A stretch of DNA of 40,518 nt from a virus. Made by a program: the position numbers and the translations under genes. Below the pieces are notes generated by a model. It searched no databases. It was given only the letters and a program-made list of their open reading frames with translations, and was not told where the DNA came from. The stretch lies in the IMG/VR virus record IMGVR_UViG_3300036791_001168, positions 1 through 40,518 of that record; one strand, 5' to 3'. Below, piece by piece: positions 617 to 2,441 of this stretch (positions are counted from its first letter, which is position 1; each line of letters begins with the position of its first letter).

Positions 617-786
617 TGACGATGGGAGAGCACATCCAGTCGAAGACCAACGTGGAGTGCCCTATCTGCGGAGGCCACGGCTGGGTCTGCGAGGCTCACC
701 CGGACAGGCCTTGGGAGAGCGGGAGTGCGCGGGACTGCGGCTGTGGCGCGCCTGGCATGCCCTGTCGCTGCACCGGGATCGAATGA
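613..786 (+). CDS. Small cysteine-rich zinc-finger-like protein
   Basis: 57 aa. It contains CPICGGHGWVC, then a short acidic/Trp stretch (HPDRPW) and CGCGAPGMPCRC, giving at least two CxxC-type pairs that look like metal ligands. The pattern CGGxGWVCExHPDxPW...CGCGAPGxPC is one I recognise from many phage and proteobacterial small proteins of unknown function. The start overlaps the preceding stop, and its own stop overlaps the methyltransferase ATG at 783, so it is translationally coupled on both sides. Function unknown. Confidence 0.75.
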   Translation: MMTMGEHIQSKTNVECPICGGHGWVCEAHPDRPWESGSARDCGCGAPGMPCRCTGIE

Positions 787-2441
787 CCTACGGTTCGCTG
801 TTCACCGGAATAGGGGGCGTGGATCTCGGCCTGGACAGGGCCGGGATGGAGTGCCGGTGGCAGGTAGAGATCGATGACTACTGCGTGAAGGTCCTGAAGA
901 AGCACTGGCCGGATGTAAAACGGTATGGCGACATCACCAAGGTCAACGGAACAGAGCTGGAGCCCGTCGATGTTATCTGCGGCGGCTTCCCCTGCCAGGA
1001 CCTCTCACAGGCCGGGAAGCGAGTCGGCATCGAGGGAACTCGCTCGGGCCTGTGGTTTGAGTACGCCCGTCTGGTTCGGGAACTTCGACCTCGATACGTG
1101 CTCATTGAGAACGTCCCAGGCCTCCTTGTTTTCGACGCAATGCGAAGAGTTGTCGGAGAACTGGCCCGACTCGGGTATGTGGGATGCTGGCGCAGTCTAC
1201 GAGCTTCAGAGTTCGGAGCCAGTCACTTGCGAAAGCGAGTCTTCATTGTGGCCTACCGCGACGGGGCAGGACTCGAAACACGCGACGAACTCGCCGGCCC
1301 AGGAAGCACGGCATCTGGGCAACCTCGTAGTCGAAGCACTGCGCTGGCCTACTGCCCAGACAACGGACGCGGCATCAGCGGCGCGGCACACAACGACGAC
1401 GGGCGTGATGCACTCAGGAACATCACTAACGGACGCGACCCGCATGTGGCCCACGGCACGGTCAGAGGACTCGGAGAGTTGTGGCAACCACCCTGGAGCG
1501 ACGGACTCCCTGACGGGAGCGACGAGGAACTGGCCCACACCGGGATCGCTGGAGGGGGGCGGCGGGAAGAGCACGCACCCGGAGAGCGGCGGGGAGAGCT
1601 TCGCGACGGCGGTGAAGAACTGGCCCACGCCTCAACAGCACGACAAGCAGGGCAGCAAGACTCCAGAGCAGATAGCGGCGATGAGGGAGAAGAACGGCGC
1701 AGGCGTATCGAACCTGAACGAGGTAGCGGAATACTGGCCCACACCAAACGTGCCGAACGGGGGCAGGACAACGAGCACCAGCAACTACGCGGAGGACGGG
1801 AGCAAGCGCCAGATCGAATTGGGAGCGATAGCGGCGATCTGGCGGACGCCGAACGCCAACATGATCGAGCCGAAGAGTTCCGTAGTAAAGCTGGAGGGCC
1901 GGAAGCCGAGCGATCCGCAGGTCGGGCTGGCCGATCAGGTGGACAACTGGCAGACACCGGGAACAGACTCCTTCCGCAGCAGGGGAGGGGACCGCAAGGA
2001 CGAGATGGGCCTGGATCAGCAGGCGCGGATGTTCTGGGGAACACCGCAGGCTCACGAGAGGACCTTCGACCCACGGGATGTGGATCACGGAGTTCAGCTA
2101 GCGAACCAGGTGGACAACTGGAAGACGCCTACTGCGCGGGACTGGAAATCAGAGACGGGAATGGATGCAGCAGACTACAGATACCGTCTCTCGCAGCAGG
2201 TTTACCTGCTTTCGCACCAGGACCCAGTGATCCCCGATGGCCCACCATCCTCAGAGAGCGCCCAGACCTCGCACCGGCGGTTGAATCCCAGATTCGTAGA
2301 GTGGCTGATGGGATTCCCGATCAGTTGGACAGAGCTATGTCCAACCGCACCAAAAGACTCGGCAGACTCGGCAATGCCGTCGTCCCGGACTGCGCGGAGT
2401 GGATCGGCCAAAAGATCCTCGAGTTCGAAGGCCTGAGATGA
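783..2441 (+). CDS. DNA (cytosine-5-)-methyltransferase, Dcm family
   Basis: 552 aa. It would transfer a methyl group from S-adenosylmethionine to C5 of cytosine in DNA, probably protecting phage DNA from host restriction. Motif I FTGIGGVDLG (residues 7-16), motif IV GGFPCQDLS with catalytic Cys71, motif VI ENVPG (109-113), motif VIII LRKRVFIVA (149-157) and motif X LGNAVVP near 529-535 are all present, with RRVADGIP just before it, so the catalytic core is complete in this frame. ATG 783 is chosen because it overlaps the previous stop and starts the conserved core. Residues about 160-500 are odd: low-complexity, Arg/Glu/Gly-rich, with recurring LAHT/LADA/LADT units and poor GC3 (about 53% in a 68-codon hand tally at 1531-1734), where the conserved target-recognition domain should be. 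The +1 frame of the same DNA is better coding sequence there; see the nested gene. Confidence 0.88.
   Translation: MTYGSLFTGIGGVDLGLDRAGMECRWQVEIDDYCVKVLKKHWPDVKRYGDITKVNGTELEPVDVICGGFPCQDLSQAGKRVGIEGTRSGLWFEYARLVRELRPRYVLIENVPGLLVFDAMRRVVGELARLGYVGCWRSLRASEFGASHLRKRVFIVAYRDGAGLETRDELAGPGSTASGQPRSRSTALAYCPDNGRGISGAAHNDDGRDALRNITNGRDPHVAHGTVRGLGELWQPPWSDGLPDGSDEELAHTGIAGGGRREEHAPGERRGELRDGGEELAHASTARQAGQQDSRADSGDEGEERRRRIEPERGSGILAHTKRAERGQDNEHQQLRGGREQAPDRIGSDSGDLADAERQHDRAEEFRSKAGGPEAERSAGRAGRSGGQLADTGNRLLPQQGRGPQGRDGPGSAGADVLGNTAGSREDLRPTGCGSRSSASEPGGQLEDAYCAGLEIRDGNGCSRLQIPSLAAGLPAFAPGPSDPRWPTILRERPDLAPAVESQIRRVADGIPDQLDRAMSNRTKRLGRLGNAVVPDCAEWIGQKILEFEGLR
1057..2436 (+). CDS. Nested out-of-frame gene: W-P-T-P repeat protein overprinting the Dcm gene
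   Basis: The frame one base downstream of the methyltransferase is open from 925 to the TGA at 2434-2436. From about 1057 (TTG; ATGs lie at 925 and 970) it reads a protein of a type I recognise in phage genomes: DLDTCSLRTSQASLF, then ENWPDSGMW, ten W-[PRQKG]-T-[PA] repeats, and C-terminal LNPRFVEWLMGFPISWTEL. In a 68-codon hand tally at 1531-1734 its GC3 is 84% against 53% for the Dcm frame, so codon usage favours this frame in the middle. After about 2330 it becomes Ser/Ala/Lys-rich and the Dcm frame again looks better. The true start is uncertain; a +1 frameshift from the Dcm frame is an alternative to internal initiation. Function unknown, possibly linked to DNA recognition by the methyltransferase. 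Confidence 0.6.
   Translation: MSTPVWFGNFDLDTCSLRTSQASLFSTQCEELSENWPDSGMWDAGAVYELQSSEPVTCESESSLWPTATGQDSKHATNSPAQEARHLGNLVVEALRWPTAQTTDAASAARHTTTTGVMHSGTSLTDATRMWPTARSEDSESCGNHPGATDSLTGATRNWPTPGSLEGGGGKSTHPESGGESFATAVKNWPTPQQHDKQGSKTPEQIAAMREKNGAGVSNLNEVAEYWPTPNVPNGGRTTSTSNYAEDGSKRQIELGAIAAIWRTPNANMIEPKSSVVKLEGRKPSDPQVGLADQVDNWQTPGTDSFRSRGGDRKDEMGLDQQARMFWGTPQAHERTFDPRDVDHGVQLANQVDNWKTPTARDWKSETGMDAADYRYRLSQQVYLLSHQDPVIPDGPPSSESAQTSHRRLNPRFVEWLMGFPISWTELCPTAPKDSADSAMPSSRTARSGSAKRSSSSKA
1249..2135 (+). repeat. Ten degenerate TGGCCnAC-type repeats read as W-P-T-P and L-A-H/D-T
   Basis: A degenerate unit built around TGG-CCC-AC recurs ten times between the first (WPTATG, TGG at 1249) and the last (WKTPTARD, TGG at 2119). 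In the nested frame it gives WPTA, WPTA, WPTA, WPTP, WPTP, WPTP, WRTP, WQTP, WGTP and WKTP; in the methyltransferase frame the same bases give VAY, LAY, VAH, LAHT, LAHA, LAHT, LADA, LADT, LGNT and LEDA. The intervals are irregular, so it is a peptide-level repeat and not a DNA tandem repeat. Confidence 0.7.

Follow-up and report, generated by a model that had tools for sequence, protein, structure and literature searches.

Do two long reading frames that overlap on one strand of a phage genome encode unrelated proteins that share their bases, or two parts of one enzyme? The question arises at positions 783 to 2441 of the IMG/VR virus contig IMGVR_UViG_3300036791_001168, whose 40518 bases constitute the window analyzed here, where a first-pass annotation had recognized a Dcm-type methyltransferase gene and, in the +1 frame, a protein with WPTP repeats. 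We conclude, with a probability of about 0.8, that the locus is a single C5 DNA methyltransferase coded as two overprinted polypeptides, alpha and beta. On the sequence evidence assembled below, beta is most likely the second subunit of a split methyltransferase, contributing target-recognition modules and motif IX. The features of the locus are as follows.

783..2441, plus strand: alpha open reading frame (ORF), 552 amino acids, C5 DNA methyltransferase large chain with motifs I-VIII and X (PF00145, phrog_363)
795..818, plus strand: alpha motif I, SLFTGIGG (read from the translation)
981..998, plus strand: alpha motif IV, GGFPCQ, with the catalytic Cys (read from the translation)
1107..1115, plus strand: alpha motif VI, ENV; the same bases lie within the beta N-domain (DTCSLRTSQ...)
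1224..1253, plus strand: alpha motif VIII, HLRKRVFIVA (read from the translation)
925..2436, plus strand: beta ORF in the +1 frame, 503 amino acids, WPTP protein (phrog_1008, stop depletion, constraint)
925..1248, plus strand: beta N-domain, SPARTS..DLDTCSLRTSQASLF..ENWPDSGMW, overlapping alpha motifs IV-VIII (constraint)
1249..2280, plus strand: ten W-x-T-P modules of beta, putative target-recognition cassettes; alpha is an open spacer here
2281..2328, plus strand: beta motif IX, LNPRFVEWLMGFPISW; in the alpha frame these bases give RRVADGIPDQL, likewise conserved
2367..2387, plus strand: alpha motif X, LGNAVVP; beta shows no constraint here

The alpha frame is open for 552 codons and carries motifs I-VIII, with PCQ and ENV, on one chain. 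It matches phrog_363 (E 1.4e-69) and phrog_116, while PF00145 (E 3.6e-52) covers only residues 1-163 (profile positions 1-166 of 324) and the best match in the PDB, M.HhaI, ends at residue 164. Motif IX is not on the chain with I-VIII, as the profile match stops at position 166 of 324 and IX is in the +1 frame; WLMGFP at 2302 in beta is followed by motif X, LGNAVVP, at 2367 in alpha. The earlier claim that alpha holds every Dcm motif from I to X was therefore right for I-VIII and X, but the canonical motif IX is in beta. Its argument that alpha stays open because IX and X lie beyond the repeats likewise stands for motif X, which by lying beyond the array requires alpha to remain open across it. 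At the motif IX site alpha reads only RRVADGIPDQLDR, which is partly forced by the beta codons.

The open stretch of the beta frame extends from 919 to 2433; its first ATG is at 925 and its stop codon at 2434-2436. Beta matches phrog_1008 (E 1.2e-36), whereas neither PADLOC nor NCBIfam searches gave a match to beta. The end at 2436 agrees with the first-pass annotation, but the start is about 130 nucleotides (nt) upstream of its estimate of 1057. Ten W-x-T-P/A units were located, the number previously proposed, at 1249, 1345, 1447, 1531, 1621, 1735, 1840, 1948, 2035 and 2119, and the C-terminal end consists of LNPRFVEWLMGFPISW and an unconserved tail. Both pairs of motifs said to share bases were recovered, GELARLGYVG in alpha with SENWPDSGM in beta and RRVADGIPDQL in alpha with FVEWLMGFPISW in beta, and the hand tally of GC content at third codon positions over 1531-1734 was exact (83.8% in beta, 52.9% in alpha). 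Of 155 interleaved loci, 106 have a +1-frame ATG within alpha codons 40-60, compared to 18 with one in the +2 frame, and beta in the window probably starts at its ATG at 925, near alpha codon 47. In relatives from an E. coli prophage, an Acinetobacter phage and a Leptospira plasmid, the beta frame is already open at the start of alpha.

We assessed how widespread this arrangement is by scanning with beta, which returned 80 loci in viral contigs and 80 in bacterial genomes from many phyla. In nearly all viral loci, beta overlapped the Dcm N-terminus in the +1 frame; WLMGFP was also read in +1, and LGNAVVP followed it in frame 0, most often after 41 or 65 nt. An alpha N-terminus was recognizable in 76 of the bacterial loci, with motif IX in +1 in 70 of these 76 and alpha open beyond IX in 67. 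Among 74 classified loci selected on alpha only, strict motif patterns identified 36 as fully interleaved, and the beta N-domain was present in most of the others. The Dcm and its partner were in cis in nearly every locus seen.

One rival reading is that beta is a spurious ORF, never translated and arising as a by-product of alpha conservation and GC-rich codon use. Each protein partly dictates the sequence of the other, as where M-G-F-P lies over G-[VI]-P, and most records annotate a single frame. However, among 73 loci chosen on alpha alone, stop codons in the +1 frame across alpha codons 93-165 numbered 0 compared to 161 expected from alpha-preserving codon shuffles, while the +2 frame of the same loci and codons had 158 compared to 202 expected. 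Codons 1-45 of alpha, 5' of beta, showed no +1 stop depletion, nor did 18 full-length canonical Dcms from the same host genomes (63 stops, 70.6 expected). These bacterial enzymes served as the control because canonical phage Dcms, which also have a constrained +1 ORF, failed as a no-overlap comparison. The codon-shuffle tests and the ordinary-Dcm control together ruled out chance and a spurious ORF statistically, and the recurrence of the same modules in distant phages also argues against the latter, to which we assign next to no probability.

Selection on alpha was assessed in 71 phage and 66 bacterial-genome loci that were not chosen for alpha openness, by synonymous resampling of the beta codons that lie between motifs VIII and IX. 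In phages, stops in the alpha frame were depleted (16 observed, 268 expected), and in bacterial genomes they were absent (0 observed, 247 expected), such that alpha was open across the interval in 68 of 71 phage loci (5.0 expected) and 66 of 66 bacterial loci (3.7 expected), with no stop depletion in the third frame. All 16 stops fall in three loci, L002, L004 and L062. In L002 and L004 alpha need not stay open because motif X is in beta, and in L062 (2704-4129) the alpha/beta gene is broken after motif VIII by an HNH-endonuclease-like insertion. In the window alone, 380 alpha codons contained 0 stops compared to 9.3 expected when beta codons were shuffled synonymously. A count over 134 loci (0 versus 368) was set aside for these unconditional 71- and 66-locus counts, as its loci had been chosen for motif X in alpha and the result is partly circular; pairwise-similarity z-scores were inflated by relatedness, and we relied on stop counts only.

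The synonymous constraint anticipated if both frames are coding was present among close relatives: third-position divergence of alpha decreased from 0.53 in codons 3-44 to 0.24 where motifs VI-VIII overlap beta and was 0.55 around motif X, where alpha third positions again varied most. The beta third position was most variable in the array (0.44) and motif IX (0.31), a beta-type substitution pattern that, like the constraint in alpha, is at odds with a spurious ORF. Conservation extends to both proteins across motif IX: alpha has 0 stops there compared to 47 expected, and it retains W, E and R residues not imposed by beta. No homologue with a stop-filled second frame was found in the clade. 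As judged from these patterns of substitution and stop usage, both frames are under selection, and the dual coding first proposed for the window holds up as real, conserved and widespread.

Natural variants of the locus indicate what beta contributes. Besides the interleaved frames seen in the window, there are split pairs resembling M.AquI, in which alpha stops after motif VIII and beta consists of modules, IX and X, found in Streptomyces phage Samy, mycobacteriophages, Arthrobacter phage ArV1 and phiBT1. Both IX and X occur on the second chain only in relatives L002, L004, L313 and L401, and not in the window. The last of these, Streptomyces phage phiBT1, has an unannotated second chain with modules, IX and X (1408-2337) beside gp9.1, a methylase that its record describes as one that 'may be inactive'. 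A third variant places I-VIII, LPTP modules, IX and X in one frame (actinophage Fancypants gp73 and Lton gp60); phrog_363 and phrog_1008 both match a single chain in such fused actinophage proteins (L311, L312), and PF00145 reaches profile position 316 in Lton (L312). In the fourth, from Rickettsiales and other alphaproteobacterial loci (L346, L351, L363, L373), IX and X are in alpha and the modules in +1, such that LNPDWVEWLMG[FY]P and LGN[AS]VVP share one frame. WLMGFP directly precedes motif X in the single-frame relatives and split pairs. Taken together, the four variants identify WLMGFP as motif IX and place the modules in the target-recognition interval. They also limit the suggestion that the two families always share DNA, which is widespread but has split, fused and mixed exceptions, and the WPTP protein, far from being unrelated to the Dcm, most likely forms the rest of one and the same enzyme.

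As a separate observation, an E. coli prophage carries a decayed copy (L437, 1200-1961) annotated with an internal stop, in which both frames are broken at one place; L438 is its intact relative.

The working order of parts kept in the AquI-like and fused relatives is also compatible with ribosomes entering the beta frame from alpha by programmed frameshifting, which would yield one long fusion of I-VIII, array and IX, and frameshifting is common among phages in general. Yet constraint on the beta frame sets in around alpha codon 61, which a ribosome shifting late would not translate in that frame, and this position far upstream of the end of motif VIII makes a frameshift origin less likely. 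The conserved +1 ATG at alpha codons 43-56 points the same way, and the route would need a +1 or -2 shift, which is rarer than -1, and a second shift to regain motif X. We regard this route as improbable, and initiation of beta at its own start codon is preferred.

Could beta instead be an independent phage protein, acting for instance in anti-restriction or regulation, whose overprinted gene merely shares bases with the Dcm? Its N-domain is kept in relatives with motif IX in alpha, and a related +1 ORF occurs in canonical phage Dcms. In these enzymes, with an in-frame motif IX (TPxECxRLQGFP), a constrained +1 ORF spans alpha codons of about 50-170, and +1 stops in blocks from codon 61 on numbered 12 compared to about 114 expected. 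The ORF was seen in L116, L147, L151, L160, L170-L202 and similar loci, with the product pattern QLTLFAxDSPAKT...SLSxVLExxVPxKYYLSxKAxxGILRRAEKRGK. The product matches phrog_16143, labelled DNA methyltransferase, and resembles the beta N-domain (hhalign probability 98.5%), a likeness that may be partly imposed by the shared alpha. AlphaFold2 modeled it with low confidence. As alpha in these enzymes already holds motif IX, supplying that motif does not account for the ORF. Against a separate function stand the location of motif IX in beta, the natural fusions, the AquI-like pairs and the partner found in cis with the Dcm in nearly every locus, and we consider such a function improbable.

The modules differ among loci in a manner that suggests exchange. 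We split 621 modules from all loci and found that types recur at different positions in distant phages, each having a distinct conserved core flanked by the constant W-P-T-P and L-x-x-Q-V ends; examples include WQTPGTDSFRSRGGDRKDEMGLDQQAR and W[AG]TPxAHxRTxxPRxVDHGxQLANQV, and the type xPTxxxTDAASAARHTTTTGVMxSGTxLTDA is common to the window and a mycobacteriophage. The modules may thus be separate DNA-specificity units that act as exchangeable cassettes. If the array were a flexible linker or scaffold only, specificity would lie elsewhere, for example in the N-domain or alpha, an alternative that concerns the role of the modules and not the two-chain enzyme. Relatives with a single module exist, the beta model is mostly of low confidence, and the predicted target-recognition domain (TRD) of M.EcoHK31I is assigned to the larger chain in PMC3404938. 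The array fills the VIII-IX interval, however, which is the known seat of specificity in C5 DNA methyltransferases (PMC3404938). Together with the recurrence of module types with their own conserved cores across distant phages, this makes the linker the less likely reading.

In the resulting model of a split methyltransferase, alpha would be translated from 783 and supply the S-adenosylmethionine (AdoMet)-binding and catalytic motifs I-VIII as well as motif X. Beta would be translated from the same message in the +1 frame, starting at its own ATG inside alpha (925), and comprise an N-domain over alpha IV-VIII, ten modules replacing the target-recognition region, and motif IX. Alpha would bind AdoMet and catalyze the reaction, beta would provide target recognition and motif IX, and the two chains may come together as a single methyltransferase acting on phage DNA. 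Its purpose is most likely to protect that DNA from host restriction, a known role of phage methyltransferases. Several points weigh against this model. Shine-Dalgarno matches at beta starts are not more common than in the +2 frame, a sequence search for solved relatives of beta gave none, and AlphaFold2 of a short beta alone was poor (predicted local distance difference test, pLDDT, 65; predicted template modeling score, pTM, 0.27). Alpha has its own conserved IX-like segment, W..EP...RVA.G[VI]P.RVDRL, and the codon shuffles ignore relatedness. Relatives that have motif IX in alpha (L346 type and canonical phage Dcms) also keep the beta N-domain, and for this reason beta would have a role beyond supplying IX.

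A broader proposal, that a large class of phage cytosine methyltransferases is obligately dual-coded, with specificity set by swappable cassettes on the nested chain that must each stay open in both frames if exchange between phages is not to cost motif X, that phages such as this one have up to ten DNA specificities, and that ordinary phage Dcms are dual-coded too through the related +1 ORF, is tentative, and we put it slightly below even odds. Most records annotate one frame only, and beta is usually missed or labelled separately; nested genes were annotated by the depositors of Paenibacillus phages Diva (gp50, 'g49 internal gene') and Bloom. Gene callers usually discard one of two long frames that overlap on the same strand of a bacterial or phage genome; in the present case the signal is very strong, single-frame and split relatives explain the overlap, and there is biochemical precedent. 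On our reading, many 'Dcm' entries from phages and prophages would represent half an enzyme, alpha cloned alone may show no or altered activity, and records marked 'may be inactive', such as phiBT1 gp9.1, may merely lack the unannotated partner. If the modules are specificity cassettes, cytosine methylation would here follow a naturally occurring modular code, and the locus would offer a clean setting in which to follow the co-evolution of two frames.

Elsewhere in the window, an ORF at 149-616, just 5' of the methyltransferase, matches the BACON domain (PF13004, E 1.8e-6), and an ORF of only 189 amino acids at 2601-3170 matches the DnaB N-terminal domain (PF00772, E 7.1e-18).

Among known systems, the smaller gene of M.EcoHK31I is reportedly nested in the larger in a different frame. 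For this enzyme (YGGCCR; Lee, Kam, Shaw 1995), PMC3404938 gives motifs I-VIII and X on the larger chain and IX on the smaller, and by the title cited there both proteins are needed in vitro. The window likewise has I-VIII and X on the large chain and IX on the small chain, and the two-chain principle is already known because the layouts are the same. In contrast to the window, M.EcoHK31I was described with its predicted TRD in the larger chain and no module array; the comparison is one of layout. M.AquI (CYCGRG) is a split enzyme whose C-terminal part with IX is on a second chain (PMC3404938), the same split as in the Samy, mycobacteriophage, phiBT1 and ArV1 relatives, whereas the window has motif X on alpha and frames interleaved over most of the gene. 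The multispecific enzymes of Bacillus phages (SPR, H2 and others) carry tandem TRDs (cited in PMC8936443), and the ten modules of the window similarly occupy the VIII-IX interval; theirs is a single chain in one frame, whereas the window modules are on a second, +1 chain and their recognition role is putative. M.BatI, a Bacillus prophage C5 DNA methyltransferase, has an unusually short recognition region and a toxicity in E. coli independent of catalysis (PMC8936443).

PHROG 1008 (beta) and PHROGs 363 and 116 (alpha) are already labelled DNA methyltransferase and kept as separate families; here they are two frames of one locus and, in fused relatives, one chain. Paenibacillus phages Diva and Bloom have the same architecture, in records that give neither mechanism nor generality. 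We found no description of phage-wide overprinting of C5 DNA methyltransferase genes in the open-access literature searched, subscription papers being outside the search. As far as that literature shows, what is new compared to these systems is how broadly the arrangement occurs, the evidence for selection in two frames, the placement of a modular array on the nested chain, the range of frame rearrangements among relatives and the additional overprinted ORF of canonical phage Dcms.
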